Positions 22,560-28,890 of a stretch of DNA of 64,000 nucleotides are shown piece after piece. The stretch's first letter is position 1; every line of letters begins with the position of its first letter. Origin of the DNA: Spirochaetaceae bacterium (GTDB taxonomy: Bacteria; Spirochaetota; Spirochaetia; Treponematales; Rectinemataceae); the NCBI GenBank assembly GCA_025356015.1, contig JANXYO010000063.1, forward strand, positions 1 through 64,000, written 5' to 3'. The translations under genes were made by a program, and so were the position numbers. The notes beneath the pieces were generated by a model that worked only from the letters and a program-made list of their open reading frames with translations, was not told the origin of the DNA and ran no database searches.

Positions 22560-23819
22560 ATGGAAAGCTATGCAATGACGGAGATAAGGGTCGCAGAGGG
22601 AGCCAGCCTCGCCCTGCTTGGCTTAATCCGCGCCAGGGGCTACACCACGTTGCGCGTCGTAGCCGACAAAAGCACCCTGGGGGCCGGAGGGGCCGCCGTG
22701 GGGACGGTCCTCGACGCGGCGAAGGATGCCGGCATCGGGCTGGGCTTCACGGTCTTCGACCCGGACATGCTCGTCGCCGGGGCCGAATCGGTATTCCGCC
22801 TCATGCTCGACCTCGGGACACAGAGGCCCCTCCTCATCGCCCTCGGCTCGGGCACGATAACCGACATTGTCCGCTTCGTGGCCCACCGCGCCGACCTCGA
22901 CTTCGTCTGCCTGCCCACAGCCCCCTCGGTCGACGCCTACAGCTCCGTGGTCGCCCCCCTGGTGGTCGGGACGGCGAAGGTGACGGTCCCGGCCAAGGCG
23001 CCGGTGGCAATCTTCGCCGAACCCTCGGTGCTCGCCGCAGCCCCGGCCGCGATGATCGCCGCGGGCTTCGGCGACATGGTCTGCAAGTTCTCGGCCGTCG
23101 CCGACTGGCGCCTCGGCTCCCTGCTCTGGGACGAGAGCTTCGACGAGGTCCTGGCCCAGCGTTCCCTCGCGGCGGCCAGCATGGCGGTCGAGGCGGCCCC
23201 GAAGATCGGCATCGGGAGCCCCGAGGGTGTCCGGGTCCTCTTCGAGGCCCTCCTCGAGTCGGGCACCTGCATGGCCCTGGCCGGGCACTCGAAACCCGCC
23301 TCGGGGGCCGAACACCAGTATTCGCATTTCTGGGAGATGAAGCTCCTGAGGGAAGGGCGGCAGCCCATCCTCCACGGCCTAAAGGTCGCACTCGGGACCC
23401 TGATCGTGGCCGGGTACTGGGACAGGCTGCGCGACATGACGAGGGAAGAGGCGAAGAGCCTCATGGAGGGCGCGGCCCTCCCCGACAGGGAGGCCGAGCT
23501 CGAGGCGATCCGCCTCGGCTTCGGCCAGGATGCCCCGACCATCCTGGGGATGGCCAGGCCCTTCCTCGACATGGATGCCGGCTCCCGGCGTGCCCTTGGA
23601 GCAAAGGTCCTTGGCAACTGGGAGGAGGTCAGGTCTATCGCGGCCGGAGTGCCCTCGGCCAAGGCCCTGGCAGGCCTCCTCGAGACCGTGCATTGCCCCA
23701 CCGAAGCGGCCGCCCTCGGCCTCGAGAGCGGGGATATGGAGGCCGCCCTCGCCCTGGCCCACTATGTCCGCGACCGCTTCACCGTGCGTAAGCTCGCCTG
23801 GCTCCTCGGCCTGGCCTAG
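22560..23819 (+). CDS. araM: sn-Glycerol-1-phosphate dehydrogenase family (AraM/EgsA type)
   Basis: This 419-residue protein belongs to the iron-dependent alcohol dehydrogenase/dehydroquinate synthase superfamily. The NAD-binding and substrate signs LIALGSGTITDIVRF and VCLPTAPSVDAYSS are those of G1P dehydrogenases. Metal ligands are suggested by GFGDMVCKFSAVADW (Asp), MALAGHSKPASGAEHQYSH (His) and PILHGLKVALGT (His). It would reduce dihydroxyacetone phosphate to sn-glycerol-1-phosphate or act on a related polyol phosphate. A second in-frame ATG is at 22572. It is divergent from the ABC importer operon. Confidence 0.88.
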   Translation: MESYAMTEIRVAEGASLALLGLIRARGYTTLRVVADKSTLGAGGAAVGTVLDAAKDAGIGLGFTVFDPDMLVAGAESVFRLMLDLGTQRPLLIALGSGTITDIVRFVAHRADLDFVCLPTAPSVDAYSSVVAPLVVGTAKVTVPAKAPVAIFAEPSVLAAAPAAMIAAGFGDMVCKFSAVADWRLGSLLWDESFDEVLAQRSLAAASMAVEAAPKIGIGSPEGVRVLFEALLESGTCMALAGHSKPASGAEHQYSHFWEMKLLREGRQPILHGLKVALGTLIVAGYWDRLRDMTREEAKSLMEGAALPDREAELEAIRLGFGQDAPTILGMARPFLDMDAGSRRALGAKVLGNWEEVRSIAAGVPSAKALAGLLETVHCPTEAAALGLESGDMEAALALAHYVRDRFTVRKLAWLLGLA

Positions 23820-24681: not shown

Positions 24682-24709
24682 AAAAGGGCGCCCCATCGCG
24701 GGACGCCCT
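24682..24709 (-). terminator. Rho-independent terminator after the sulfur module
   Basis: On the minus strand, AGGGCG(T)CCC and GGG(G)CGCCCT pair around GCGAT and are followed by TTTC. It lies 42 bases after the stop of the iron-sulfur protein gene at 24751 and ends that operon. Confidence 0.6.
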
Positions 24710-24750: not shown

Positions 24751-26034
24751 TCAGAGCCTGTAGCTCTGGCCCGGCCGAACCAGGGCCTTCGCCACAAGGT
24801 GGGAGAGGAACTCCACCTTCATGCCGAGGGCGTAGTGCTCGTTCAGGTCCGAGAGCTGGCTATGGCAGTTCTCGCAGGCCGTGGTGATGATGGCCGCCTT
24901 GGAGGCTCGCATCTGCTCGGCCTTGACCTTCGAGGACTTCATGCGGAACTCCATCTCGCCCATCGCGACCAGGCCACCGCCGCCCCCGCAGCACCAGTTC
25001 TCCTCCTTCGTCGGCCTAAGCTCGACGAAGTACTCGGTGAGGGCGCGCAGGACGCGCCGGGGTTCCTCGATGACGCCCCCGTTGCGCGCGATCTGACAGG
25101 GGTCGTGGTAGGTGACCTTCTCGGTGATCTTCGACTTGTCCAGGGTTATGCGGCCCTGACTGAGGTAGCGGTCGATGAGCTCGACGAAGGCGATGACCTT
25201 GAAGGGCTGCTTGCCCATGAAGTGCCGCATCACCCTGAAGGCCGTGCCGCACTCGACGATCGCGACTTCCTTGACCCCGAGGCCGATGGCCTCGTCGATG
25301 ATCCTCTGGGCGATGGCCTTCATCTTCCTCGAGTCGCCGACAAATGCGCCAAAGTTGACGGCCTCGAAGAAGGAGAGGCTCCAGCGTTCCTTGGCGGCGT
25401 TCATGATGGCCGCGGCCGGCACTATTGAGTGGGCCCCAGCCAGGCCGACGTACAGGAGGTCCGCGCCCTTCGCCTCAAGCGGCATGGGCCGGGAGAAGGC
25501 TCCCTCGGCCTCGGCGGCCGTCGGCCAGAGGGCGAGCACGTCTGCCTCGAGGTTGGTGATCGCCTCGGCGTAGCTGGCCTTGGTCTCCTCGATGCCCTCG
25601 CCCTTCGCTATCGACATGTCGGAGAGCATGGAGAGGAGCTTTGGCTCCTTGTCGGCGCCGATGAGGAGGGCTTTCGCGATGGACATGAGCTGCTGGGTGT
25701 CGATGCCGAAGGGGCAGTGCACCATGCAGCGCCGGCAGCCCGTGCAGGAATAGGCCGCCTCGTAGATGCGCTCCAGGGTGCCGTCGTCGAACTCGAGGAC
25801 CTCGCCCAGCCAGGGGGCGAAGCTACCTTGCATCTTGAAGTAGCGCCTGAAGACCTTGCGGATCACCTCAGCCCGGCCCACCGCCGTGTACTTGATCTCG
25901 GGGATCGAGGCGCCCACGTGGCAGGAATCGAGGCAGTTGCCGCAGCGCGTGCAGGTCTCGAGGTACATCTTCATCGCGGAGTTGAGCCTGGTCTCGAAAA
26001 GCCTCTTGAGGTCGCGGCTCAGCTGTGTGTCCAT
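24751..26034 (-). CDS. HdrD/DsrK-like iron-sulfur protein
   Basis: This 427-residue cytoplasm-facing redox protein has two ferredoxin-type clusters (CTRCGNCLDSCHVG near residue 28, CTGCRRCMVHCPFG near residue 100). C-terminal CCG-type elements (YHDPCQIARNGG, WCCGGGGGLV and TACENCHSQL) resemble those that hold the catalytic [4Fe-4S] cluster of heterodisulfide reductase and DsrK. The first CCG repeat is reduced (VECGTAFRVMRHF). It would accept or donate electrons through the cytochrome b encoded just upstream, whose gene overlaps by 16 bases. The thiol, disulfide or persulfide substrate is not known. Confidence 0.85.
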   Translation of the reverse strand: MDTQLSRDLKRLFETRLNSAMKMYLETCTRCGNCLDSCHVGASIPEIKYTAVGRAEVIRKVFRRYFKMQGSFAPWLGEVLEFDDGTLERIYEAAYSCTGCRRCMVHCPFGIDTQQLMSIAKALLIGADKEPKLLSMLSDMSIAKGEGIEETKASYAEAITNLEADVLALWPTAAEAEGAFSRPMPLEAKGADLLYVGLAGAHSIVPAAAIMNAAKERWSLSFFEAVNFGAFVGDSRKMKAIAQRIIDEAIGLGVKEVAIVECGTAFRVMRHFMGKQPFKVIAFVELIDRYLSQGRITLDKSKITEKVTYHDPCQIARNGGVIEEPRRVLRALTEYFVELRPTKEENWCCGGGGGLVAMGEMEFRMKSSKVKAEQMRASKAAIITTACENCHSQLSDLNEHYALGMKVEFLSHLVAKALVRPGQSYRL

Positions 26035-26867
26035 ACACGCCTCCTGACTGCGTTGATGGGGAGGGCGAGGAAGGCGTGCATGATTTTCGAGAAGGGGAGG
26101 ACGAGGAAGATCAGCTCGGCCAGGACGACGTGGAGCACGACCATGTGGTAGTGCGAGCCGTGGAGGATGGCCCGGGGGTCGGCGAAGGTGAAGGCCGCGA
26201 GGCCGTCGAAGTACTTCGCGAAGTCCTGCTTGGTCATGACGAAACCCGATGCCGTCCAGGAATTGCCCCAGCTGATGAGGTCGCCGAGGAGGAAGGTGAA
26301 CAGGAGGAGGAGGAGGAGGAGGTAGTCAGAGGGGATCGAGATCTGTCTATAGGATCCCTTGAACCTCCTGCCCATGAAATAGAAGGCGCTCAGGGTGACC
26401 ATGAGGCCTACGCCGCCGGCGCCGAGCATGTCGCGGGAGGCGGGGGGGACGAGGTTGATGGAGCCCAGGATGTCCAGGTGGCCCAGGATGAGGAGGAGGA
26501 AGCCGAGGTGGAAGACCAGGAGGGCGACCCAGAGGGCCGGGCTGCGCTTGAGGATCTGGGGCATGCCCAGGCTTTCGCCGAGGGCGGCCATCCATGGCCT
26601 CTTCCTCGCCGGGTAGAGGGCAAGCTGGTAGGGAGGAGGTGGCGAGTTGAGGATCTTGACGATCCTCACCACCAGGGCCACGAGGAGGAAGGCGAGGGAG
26701 AGATAGACCAGGGGGACCATGACCGAGTACTCGAGCTTGTCAAACGCCAGGGCCAGACCCGTGTGGGCGACCTGGCTCGCGGCCGTGACCGCGTCCGTCG
26801 TCGTGCCCGCCGCGGCCGGGGCTACCGCCTGCGTGGCGGCCGAGACCGCCTCTGCTGCTGCTGCCAT
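26019..26867 (-). CDS. NarI/DsrM-like membrane cytochrome b subunit
   Basis: This 282-residue membrane protein has an Ala/Thr-rich N-terminus of about 35 residues and then about five to six helices. Histidines fit b-haem ligation: WVALLVFHLGFLLLILGHLD in one helix and HGSHYHMVVLHVVLAE in another. The arrangement matches the nitrate reductase gamma/DsrM family. It should anchor the HdrD-like protein and exchange electrons with quinone. It overlaps the next gene by 16 bases and follows tusA by 10 bases. Confidence 0.83.
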   Translation of the reverse strand: MAAAAEAVSAATQAVAPAAAGTTTDAVTAASQVAHTGLALAFDKLEYSVMVPLVYLSLAFLLVALVVRIVKILNSPPPPYQLALYPARKRPWMAALGESLGMPQILKRSPALWVALLVFHLGFLLLILGHLDILGSINLVPPASRDMLGAGGVGLMVTLSAFYFMGRRFKGSYRQISIPSDYLLLLLLLFTFLLGDLISWGNSWTASGFVMTKQDFAKYFDGLAAFTFADPRAILHGSHYHMVVLHVVLAELIFLVLPFSKIMHAFLALPINAVRRRVWTHS

Positions 26868-26877
26868 CGCTATCTGC

Positions 26878-27117
26878 CTATTTCTGGCGCTTGACGTAGA
26901 TCTTGATGAGGCCGCTCTCCTGCTTGGTCTCGAGGATCGCGTTGCCCGTCGTCTTGGCCCAGGCGGGGAAATCCGAGAGCGAGCCTGGGTCGGTGGTCAG
27001 CACTTCGACTACCTCGCCTACAGCGATCTTGGGCAGCTCCTGGCTGATCTTTACGATTGGCATGGGGCACTTTAGCCCCTTGTAGTCGAGGGTCTTGAGG
27101 GTGGTGTATTCGGCCAT
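26878..27117 (-). CDS. tusA: TusA/SirA-family sulfur carrier
   Basis: This 79-residue protein has the TusA signature GLKCPMPIVKI with the single sulfur-carrying Cys at residue 17, and the usual two-layer fold length. TusA-type proteins pass persulfide sulfur between enzymes. Its place between a DsrE2 gene and membrane redox genes suggests a dedicated carrier for this module rather than the tRNA-thiolation TusA. An AGGAG site lies upstream of the ATG. Confidence 0.9.
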   Translation of the reverse strand: MAEYTTLKTLDYKGLKCPMPIVKISQELPKIAVGEVVEVLTTDPGSLSDFPAWAKTTGNAILETKQESGLIKIYVKRQK

Positions 27118-27153
27118 TCTGATACTCCTTGTGCGAACTGCTTCGCCTGCGGT

Positions 27154-27699
27154 CTAGAGGAAGAGCTGGATCGAGGATTCCCCGGCTTCGGCGAGGAAGG
27201 TGGCGACGCCTCCGATCGACTTGTGGGGGTAGTCGATCATCTCCTCGGGCTTCATGCCCATGAGGTCCATGGACATCTCGCAGATCACGATCTTGACGCC
27301 AAGGACTCCCGCCGTCTCGAAGAGCTCGTCAAGGTTGGCGACGTTCTTCTTGGTCATAAGGTATTTCATCATCCCCGTGCCGGCCCCGGCCATGTGCATC
27401 TGGGAGAGCTTGGTCTTGTTCCGGCCCTTGGGCAGCATCATGCCGAACATTTTGGAGAGGAGGTCCTTGCCCTTCACCTTCTTGGCCGGATCGCGGAGGG
27501 CGGCGGTTCCCCAGAAGGTGTAGAACATGACGACCTCCATCCCCATGGCGGCGGCGCCGGTGGCGATGATCATGGAGGCGAGGTGCTTGTCCAGGTCTCC
27601 CGAGAACACGATCATCGACAGTTTCTTCTTGGGACCCGGCCTCTCCTCGAGCATGGCCTTGATAGAAGCCAGTTCCTTTTCCATGTCAACTGCCATCAT
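27154..27699 (-). CDS. DsrE2-type (DsrE/DsrF/DrsH-like) sulfurtransferase
   Basis: This 181-residue protein belongs to the DsrE2 family. It shows KLSMIVFSGDLDKHLASMII, EVVMFYTFWGT and a Cys in VKIVICEMSMDLMG near residue 145, which aligns with the persulfide-carrying cysteine region. Family members are small sulfur-transfer proteins, commonly paired with TusA and rhodanese, and are often membrane-associated. I use the ATG at 27699, which overlaps the arsR stop (ATGA) and has a GGAGG site. It passes to tusA after 36 bases. Confidence 0.87.
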   Translation of the reverse strand: MMAVDMEKELASIKAMLEERPGPKKKLSMIVFSGDLDKHLASMIIATGAAAMGMEVVMFYTFWGTAALRDPAKKVKGKDLLSKMFGMMLPKGRNKTKLSQMHMAGAGTGMMKYLMTKKNVANLDELFETAGVLGVKIVICEMSMDLMGMKPEEMIDYPHKSIGGVATFLAEAGESSIQLFL

Positions 27700-28007
27700 T
27701 TCCCTCCATCGGTGTAGGTCGTGCAGCCCTCGAGGCACCGCATGAGGTCCCTGAGTCGCGGCACGGCGAGCCGGTAGGTTGTGAAGCCCCCGCCCCTGGC
27801 GGCCTCGACGAGGCCGCTCATCCGCAAGATCTTGAGCTGCTGCGAGACGATCGCCGGCGCCGCCCCGATGCGTTCCGCGATCGCGCCCACATTGGCTTCG
27901 CTGTCGCAGAGAACCGAGACTATCCGGATCCGGGTTGGATTTCCGATCGCCTTCACCATTTCGGCCACATGCGCGGCAAGGCCCGAATCGGCGTCGATTG
28001 CTCCCAT
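27696..28007 (-). CDS. ArsR-family regulator, possible persulfide sensor
   Basis: This 103-residue winged-helix repressor has the recognition region VGAIAERIGAAPAIVSQQLK. It has Cys34 in the second helix (IVSVLCDSEA) and Cys91/Cys95 near the C-terminus (MRCLEGCTTY). A helix-2 Cys combined with a C-terminal Cys is the layout of the persulfide sensors SqrR/BigR, and the genes behind it handle sulfane sulfur. A sulfide or polysulfide signal is therefore a reasonable inference. It is the first gene of the module and is preceded by a perfect 14-bp palindrome at 28031-28044. Confidence 0.85.
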   Translation of the reverse strand: MGAIDADSGLAAHVAEMVKAIGNPTRIRIVSVLCDSEANVGAIAERIGAAPAIVSQQLKILRMSGLVEAARGGGFTTYRLAVPRLRDLMRCLEGCTTYTDGGK

Positions 28008-28030
28008 GTCGTCCGTTCCTTCGAAATAGC

Positions 28031-28044
28031 GATATAGCTATATC
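28031..28044. promoter_or_regulatory. Perfect palindrome upstream of arsR, candidate operator
   Basis: GATATAGCTATATC is its own reverse complement and lies 24 bases upstream of the arsR start, in an A/T-rich patch of otherwise GC-rich DNA that could also hold the -10 element. ArsR-family operators are AT-rich inverted repeats in this position, so autoregulation of the sulfur module is likely. Confidence 0.6.
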
Positions 28045-28251
28045 TATACATTAAGTTCTGGAAAGCCGCAAGCGAAATCCGGCGCCCACTGCTATACTTT
28101 CCAAGGGTAAGCCAAGCGGCTTTCCAGGAGAACCGGATGCCAAGGACCTTCAGCCATTCTCTGCACTTCGATGCCGCCCCCACCCGGGACAAAGCCGGGC
28201 CACCAAGGCCCAAGGCGGCACGATGACGATGAACTTGAAGCTGGGCCGAGC

Positions 28252-28890
28252 ATGCTAAAACGCCAACTGCCGGGACCCGGGGGAAGGTTCTCCGTCACCC
28301 ATGCCCTTGGGTCCTCGGGCAAGCAGATCAGGATCGAGCCGGGCGGGCACCGCGCGGTCATGGAGAACGTCGTGCTCACGACCATACTCGGCTCCTGCGT
28401 CTCGGCCTGCCTCTACGACGAGGAGAGCGGGGTCGCCGGCATGAACCACTTCATGCTCGCGAACCGCCGCTACGCGAAGGCCATGCCCATGAGCGTGACC
28501 GATGCCGGGCGCTACGGCATCCACGCGATGGAGCTCCTCATCAACGACATGCTCAAGCTCGGGGCGACGAAGTCGCGGATAAAGGCGAAGGTCTTCGGCG
28601 GGGGCCGGATCCTGGAGACGGGGAGCAGGGACACCTTCTTCTGCGTGGGTGAGGTCAACCAGCGCTTTATCAGGGAATTTCTCGAGCTCGAGAAGATCGA
28701 GGCGGTCGCCTTCGACCTCGGGGGAGAGCTGGGGCGGGTGATCCACTTCAGGACCGATACCTTCCAGGTCTTCCGCCGCTGGATCCAGAAGGCCGAGACG
28801 ATCAGCGTCGAGCGTGAGGAGCACCAGCTCTGGAAGCAGAGCATCTCGGAGCACGAGACCAGTCCGGGAGACGCGATCCTCTTCAGGTAG
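28252..28890 (+). CDS. cheD: Chemoreceptor glutamine deamidase CheD
   Basis: This 212-residue protein deamidates or modulates chemoreceptors and can interact with CheC. The catalytic Cys is in ILGSCVSACLYD and the catalytic His in GVAGMNHFML, with the substrate-binding GRYGIHAMELLINDML and AKVFGGGRIL. The start is uncertain: the ATG at 28252 has only a weak site and the frame is open back to 28171. No other chemotaxis genes are adjacent. A C-terminal tail of about 25 residues (REEHQLWKQSISEHETSP) is longer than in many CheD proteins. Confidence 0.9.
   Translation: MLKRQLPGPGGRFSVTHALGSSGKQIRIEPGGHRAVMENVVLTTILGSCVSACLYDEESGVAGMNHFMLANRRYAKAMPMSVTDAGRYGIHAMELLINDMLKLGATKSRIKAKVFGGGRILETGSRDTFFCVGEVNQRFIREFLELEKIEAVAFDLGGELGRVIHFRTDTFQVFRRWIQKAETISVEREEHQLWKQSISEHETSPGDAILFR

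Follow-up and report, generated by a model that had tools for sequence, protein, structure and literature searches.

A conserved dsrE2-tusA-cytb-hdrD gene set in a spirochaete and other bacteria: a candidate membrane oxidoreductase for protein-bound sulfane sulfur

The characterised membrane complexes that join an iron-sulfur protein of the CCG family to a cytochrome b, HdrED and DsrMK, run as disulfide or trisulfide reductases. Here we describe a locus, arsR-dsrE2-tusA-cytb-hdrD, in which such a pair follows two candidate sulfur carriers. It lies at positions 24751-28044 of a 64,000-nucleotide stretch (the window) of contig JANXYO010000063.1 from a Spirochaetaceae bacterium (assembly GCA_025356015.1). 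According to two reports (PMC4175335, PMC3397948), relatives of the two carriers, DsrE2 and TusA, take part in sulfur oxidation in A. vinosum and Metallosphaera. A Pelobacter protein in which TusA and DsrE2 domains are combined with a pyridine-nucleotide oxidoreductase (PNDR) and a rhodanese, Pcar_0429, is encoded by a gene among those with the strongest upregulation on elemental sulfur, and a sulfur-reductase role has been proposed for it (PMC3543383). From comparison of sequences, gene neighbourhoods and predicted folds we propose that dsrE2-tusA-cytb-hdrD encodes a membrane protein-persulfide (sulfane-sulfur) oxidoreductase, probably working in the reductive direction, a reading to which we assign a probability of roughly one half.

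All five genes were confirmed as read, and they form one closely spaced unit on the minus strand, with open reading frames and Pfam assignments in agreement with the families that a first-pass annotation of the window had named. The first gene, arsR (27696-28007), encodes a protein of 103 aa with an HTH_5 domain that matches NF033788 over its cut-off and whose cysteines are exactly Cys34, Cys91 and Cys95. The ATG start of dsrE2 (27154-27699) overlaps the arsR stop codon as ATGA, an alternative GTG at 27738 being likewise open, and its product is a DsrE2-like sulfur carrier (PF13686, DrsE_2, 167.6 bits). It is followed by tusA (26878-27117), encoding a TusA sulfurtransferase of 79 aa (PF01206, 78.3 bits) with Cys17 in a KCPMP motif, by cytb (26019-26867), encoding a membrane cytochrome b subunit of 282 aa (PF02665, Nitrate_red_gam, 40.6 bits against a cut-off of 22.9), and by an hdrD-like gene (24751-26034) that overlaps cytb by 16 nt. 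The hdrD-like product, hereafter the CCG protein, has 427 aa, with a CCG domain (PF02754), Fer4_8, two CX2CX2CX3C motifs and one CCG motif.

No specific NCBIfam model reached its cut-off on cytb or hdrD. The CCG protein scored 245.6 bits against the DsrK equivalog NF045796 (cut-off 400), 206.7 against TmcB (cut-off 735) and 181.7 against HmcF (cut-off 750), and the cytochrome 16.5 bits against the DsrM equivalog NF038037 (cut-off 300) and 36.6 against TmcC (cut-off 240). DsrE2 likewise stayed below its equivalog NF047629, at 79.9 bits against a cut-off of 210. The CCG protein is about 26% identical to DsrK, and in a phylogenetic tree the module CCG proteins form one clade (100/100) and the DsrK proteins a separate one (100/100). 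By sequence, then, the CCG protein is a clade of its own beside DsrK, in a sister family to DsrK, TmcB and HmcF. The first-pass annotation had allowed that it might turn out to be a subunit of a known oxidase; no named oxidase subunit was matched over its cut-off.

The residues that such an enzyme would need are retained. We counted ligand conservation over up to 73 module sets, in which some genomes are represented twice. TusA Cys17 is kept in 73 of 73 and the single DsrE2 cysteine in 72 of 72. The CCG proteins conserve all eight cubane-type cysteines together with the CCG cysteines 313, 348, 349, 387 and 390 and Cys262, and the cytochromes conserve His120 (99%), His130, His239, His246 and His264. 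In the cytochrome, His120/His130 and His246/His264 are spaced by 10 and 18 residues, which we take to be the spacings of the NarI heme ligands. A phmmer search with the cytochrome alone found no match among solved structures; its predicted structure (predicted local distance difference test, pLDDT, 79.5) matches NarI of NarGHI, followed by EtfD (9ojn). Because the PF02665 match, the two spacings and the fold agree, we read the cytochrome as a NarI-type diheme protein. The predicted structure of the CCG protein (pLDDT 85.7) matches EtfD, LutA and HdrB, best of all EtfD 9ojn. The membrane cytochrome b and CCG iron-sulfur protein recognised at first inspection are thus supported by both domain and fold matches.

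The gene order is conserved well beyond this genome. When 84,980 species genomes were scanned with a DsrE2 alignment and the best 80 loci fetched, the order dsrE2-tusA-cytb-hdrD was recovered in at least 43 of these 80, ten of the 43 having an ArsR gene in front, identified by similarity. The ordered loci come from Spirochaetota, Desulfobacterota, records labelled Deltaproteobacteria or Myxococcota, Bacillota, Eisenbacteria and Aminicenantes, and the module is present in at least five bacterial phyla. Closer to the host, 59 relative genomes contained seven others with the unit or a remainder of it left at a contig end, six from the same family and one (G030) from a different family within the order. 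Searching 296 sampled genomes of the phylum with the cytochrome brought up members from distant classes (27-38% identity), and the other module genes adjoin the cytochrome in nearly every one unless a contig end cuts the locus; a marginal cytochrome match in G267 is not a module member. Comparison of the CCG-family and cytochrome searches over the same 296 genomes gave 22 genomes in common, one with hdrD only and one in which hdrD is apparently split. In 18 loci from Desulfobacterota or Deltaproteobacteria the regulator is of the MarR type instead, with a conserved CC pair and a further cysteine; because the regulators in front differ while the four genes stay, we regard dsrE2-tusA-cytb-hdrD as the functional unit. 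Eight Desulfobacterota loci (L073, L086, L096, L106, L113, L119, L123, L131) carry after the module a gene for a beta-barrel outer-membrane protein, FadL-like by eye, which may import a sulfur compound.

That the unit handles sulfane sulfur is suggested mainly by the other redox partners with which DsrE2-TusA occurs. Other spirochaetes have proteins in which TusA and DsrE2 domains are fused to a pyridine-nucleotide oxidoreductase and a rhodanese, a make-up like that of Pcar_0429. In Bacteroidota, DsrE2, mostly with TusA, is followed by FlpD, two HdrA-like proteins and a QmoC-like protein (L092:4031-13923, L085 and L100; others include L118, L110 and L078), apparently a further system that links this sulfur relay to quinone; a CRP-type regulator stands in front of such loci, and in three of them a Sulf_transp (YeeE/YedE-type) gene and rhodaneses precede the DsrE2 group. 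We suggest tentatively, as a proposition that falls a little short of even, that the module represents an undescribed and widespread family of membrane oxidoreductases in which TusA and DsrE2 replace DsrC, that it allows respiratory or energy-conserving use of sulfane sulfur without Dsr genes, and that the cytochrome b-CCG pair is one of three interchangeable partners of the relay, the NADH enzyme and the Qmo-like complex being the other two.

In the reductive reading, the proteins would act as one complex. DsrE2, through its one cysteine, and TusA, through Cys17, would carry sulfane sulfur as persulfide, TusA taking the place held by DsrC in the DsrMK system. The CCG protein would bind three clusters, two of them cubane [4Fe-4S] and the third a non-cubane one of the HdrB/DsrK type, would work on the persulfide or a mixed disulfide of TusA/DsrE2, and would trade electrons with the diheme NarI-type cytochrome b and, through it, with a quinone, most likely menaquinone in the host. 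Quinol electrons would pass by way of the hemes and clusters to TusA/DsrE2-bound sulfur, so that H2S is released and the carrier freed. We favour the reductive direction because of the HdrED/DsrMK precedent, the sulfur-induced fusion enzyme and the many carriers of the module without oxidases.

The last of these points comes from 17 module-bearing spirochaete genomes, some of them incomplete, that were checked for DsrC, sulfite reductase, oxidase and the menaquinone methyltransferase MenG. DsrC is absent in 14 of the 17, the sulfite-reductase domain in 13 and heme-copper oxidase in nine, Rectinema included, and use of the enzyme as an electron sink is favoured for that last reason. The host genome (4.17 Mb, 99% complete) contains no DsrC (PF04358) and no sulfite-reductase domain (PF01077), so that the lack of dsrAB first remarked for the window extends to the whole genome, and the module CCG protein is its sole DsrK-family match. 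The host does have complex I genes adjoining a MenG gene over cut-off, UbiA-type prenyltransferases, a heme O synthase and heme-copper oxidase subunit I matches (contigs C118 and C24 of the host assembly, G000); this relative of Rectinema probably respires oxygen. The exchange of electrons with quinone envisaged in the first-pass annotation is accordingly well supported for the host by its gene content, though not for all module-bearing relatives. The host also encodes a DMSO/selenate-reductase-like molybdoenzyme (G000:C149:12249-14378, equivalent to L173:6250-8379; 416 bits, under the dmsA_ynfE cut-off), which may serve the organism as a terminal reductase. Elsewhere in the phylum, three Spirochaetota genomes (G098:C6:93000-106400; G106:C30 and C58; G124:C51) have DsrC, sulfite-reductase domains and a DsrK over cut-off in addition to the module, and they also have a second DsrK-like protein of about 315 bits (L195-L197), near DsrK on a deep branch of its own.

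The same complex could instead run oxidatively, sulfur from sulfide or thiols being loaded as persulfide on DsrE2/TusA and the electrons passing to clusters, hemes, menaquinone and oxidases, as a cytoplasmic counterpart of sulfide:quinone reductase (SQR) or of the sHdr pathway. This is the main rival to the reductive reading, and we consider it unlikely, though by no means negligible. General redox chemistry, rather than any computation here, makes the reaction downhill towards menaquinone, the host has the complex I, MenG and heme-copper oxidases that it would feed, and the carriers' relatives in A. vinosum and Metallosphaera, in the reports cited above, serve sulfur oxidation. Against it stand the nine of 17 module-bearing spirochaetes, Rectinema among them, that have no heme-copper oxidase, a module with no sulfite-forming or Sox/sHdr genes, and the reductase role of HdrED and DsrMK.

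The regulator may respond to reactive sulfur. A perfect 14-nt palindrome, GATATAGCTATATC (28031-28044, minus strand), lies 24-37 nt before the arsR start, where the first-pass annotation had placed one. Shuffling the 130-nt upstream region yields a perfect palindrome of this kind about 2% of the time, so that by itself it is modest evidence; the exact sequence GATATAGNNATATC also precedes arsR in the relatives' loci L060 and L066, and L055, L061 and L064 have near matches there. The operator consensus was drawn from the same relatives' sequences in which these dyads were seen, and the pattern GATATNNNNATATC has two sites in the whole genome, that is, one besides the module operator. A possible promoter, TTGCGG-17 nt-TATAGA (28043-28071, minus strand), found by eye and not listed by a consensus scan, has a -10 element that shares two bases with the palindrome. 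The module genes are probably co-regulated from this one operator, in line with the joint control that had been proposed. ArsR would repress the unit by binding the palindrome, which overlies the -10 region, and would come off once its cysteines react with sulfane sulfur. The cysteines at 34, 91 and 95 in which a persulfide-sensor layout had been seen are indeed conserved, the module homologues keeping Cys34 (except in L059) and the C-terminal CxxxC, but they do not sit at the positions of the BigR/SqrR pair: BigR (3pqj) is the best solved match, and its cysteine aligns with Ser31. TsoR (NF045707) was rejected as a name for the regulator (33-47 bits against 115).

A nearly private operator and a cysteine-bearing ArsR or MarR, both fitting induction by reactive sulfur, would also suit a protective role, in which the module clears toxic persulfide or polysulfide in sulfidic habitats and the electrons of the membrane pool are merely convenient. 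The presence of the module in genomes both with and without oxidases agrees with this. Such a role appears improbable to us, since a membrane complex of four genes that has several metal and heme centres and is retained across phyla is a costly means of mere detoxification, and several carriers already have fused soluble proteins resembling persulfide reductases.

Still less probable, to the point of being very doubtful, is that cytb-hdrD provides an electron entry point of the EtfD/EMO type (ETF:menaquinone) or a pair of oxidase subunits, beside which dsrE2-tusA stand incidentally. EtfD 9ojn is the best fold match of the CCG protein and second to NarI for the cytochrome; however, the CCG protein reaches 245.6 bits against the DsrK model and the module profile 70 bits against EtfD, no etfAB-like family recurs beside the module in the compared loci, and the pair stays linked to dsrE2-tusA across phyla. 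That the pair is a paralogue of DsrMK or TmcBC with DsrC as its partner, suggested by DsrK, TmcB, HmcF and TmcC as the best NCBIfam matches, is hardly credible given the unreached cut-offs, the separate clade and the absence of DsrC from the host and 14 of 17 carriers; in the host itself it is set aside because DsrC, sulfite reductase and any further DsrK-like protein are absent.

Several points weigh against a reductive sulfane-sulfur enzyme under ArsR control. The reduction of sulfane sulfur with menaquinol runs uphill if the membrane potential does not assist, and no coupling subunit can be seen in the module. Neither MenG over cut-off nor a clear MqnA/D is present in six of the 17 module-bearing genomes, Rectinema included. 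ArsR Cys34 falls three residues past the BigR cysteine in the alignment, outside the BigR/SqrR arrangement, and some Desulfobacterota loci have DsrE2, with or without TusA, and no adjoining cytb-hdrD.

Around the unit, a terminator-like hairpin (24685-24709, minus strand), with an 11-pair stem followed by a T run, stands at its end, weak evidence given that three such sites were found in the region against 2.0 expected from shuffling. A CheD chemotaxis protein gene (28171-28890, plus strand) is divergent from the module, and a gene at 22560-23819 (plus strand) encodes a protein similar to NAD(P)-dependent glycerol-1-phosphate dehydrogenase (184 bits, cut-off 413), here in a spirochaete. Neither these two nor a cytidylate-kinase-like neighbour in the window recurs beside the module in the compared loci.

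If the proposal is right, a membrane enzyme that the dsrAB, sox, sHdr, YTD and SQR markers miss takes part in the sulfur metabolism of anaerobic sediments and the subsurface, and it spans Spirochaetota, Desulfobacterota, Bacillota and other phyla, a cultured Rectinema included. The HdrED/DsrMK principle would then extend to a new sulfur carrier, in a four-gene system whose regulator and operator make it amenable to ordinary biochemistry.

Among papers on DsrE/TusA clusters and sulfur disproportionation, mostly open-access and without preprints, this gene set was not described. The ArsR protein resembles the BigR/SqrR/sHdrR repressors in its best solved match and in having one early cysteine and cysteine near the C-terminus, but its first cysteine is shifted by three positions, its C-terminal pair is a CxxxC and it scores 45 bits against a BigR cut-off of 155. 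The YTD cluster (YeeE/YedE-TusA-DsrE) of sulfur disproportionators shares TusA and a DsrE-superfamily protein, but it has a transporter, a type II DsrEFH and two or three conserved hypothetical genes, and neither cytochrome b nor CCG protein; no YedE/YeeE transporter is among the genes conserved with the module, nor are the HdrA/HdrB/HdrC set and lipoate-binding protein of sHdr, although the whole genome was not searched for LbpA. Both identities were rejected on gene content. The PNDR-rhodanese-TusA-DsrE2 fusions likewise couple a TusA and DsrE2 sulfane-sulfur relay to a redox enzyme, in their case a predicted NADH-dependent FAD enzyme fused to it rather than a membrane cytochrome-CCG pair. 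EtfD/EMO is a single chain with membrane and CCG parts, linked to etfAB, whereas the module uses two genes. TmcBC and HmcEF have the same pair of folds, but the scores lie far under their cut-offs and the conserved module has no cytochrome c gene; they and DsrMK were rejected as identities on unreached cut-offs, absent DsrC and the separate clade. HdrED of methanogens, which acts on a disulfide, also combines a CCG protein with a membrane cytochrome b, but the module is bacterial, has no CoM/CoB, and no HdrD-named model is among its matches. DsrMK(JOP) shares the NarI-type cytochrome b, the CCG iron-sulfur protein and a thiol or persulfide carrier as expected partner; the module has no DsrJOP, its host genome no DsrC or DsrAB, and its carriers are TusA and DsrE2. 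The module is thus a variant of the HdrED/DsrMK kind, one not previously described in the literature searched.

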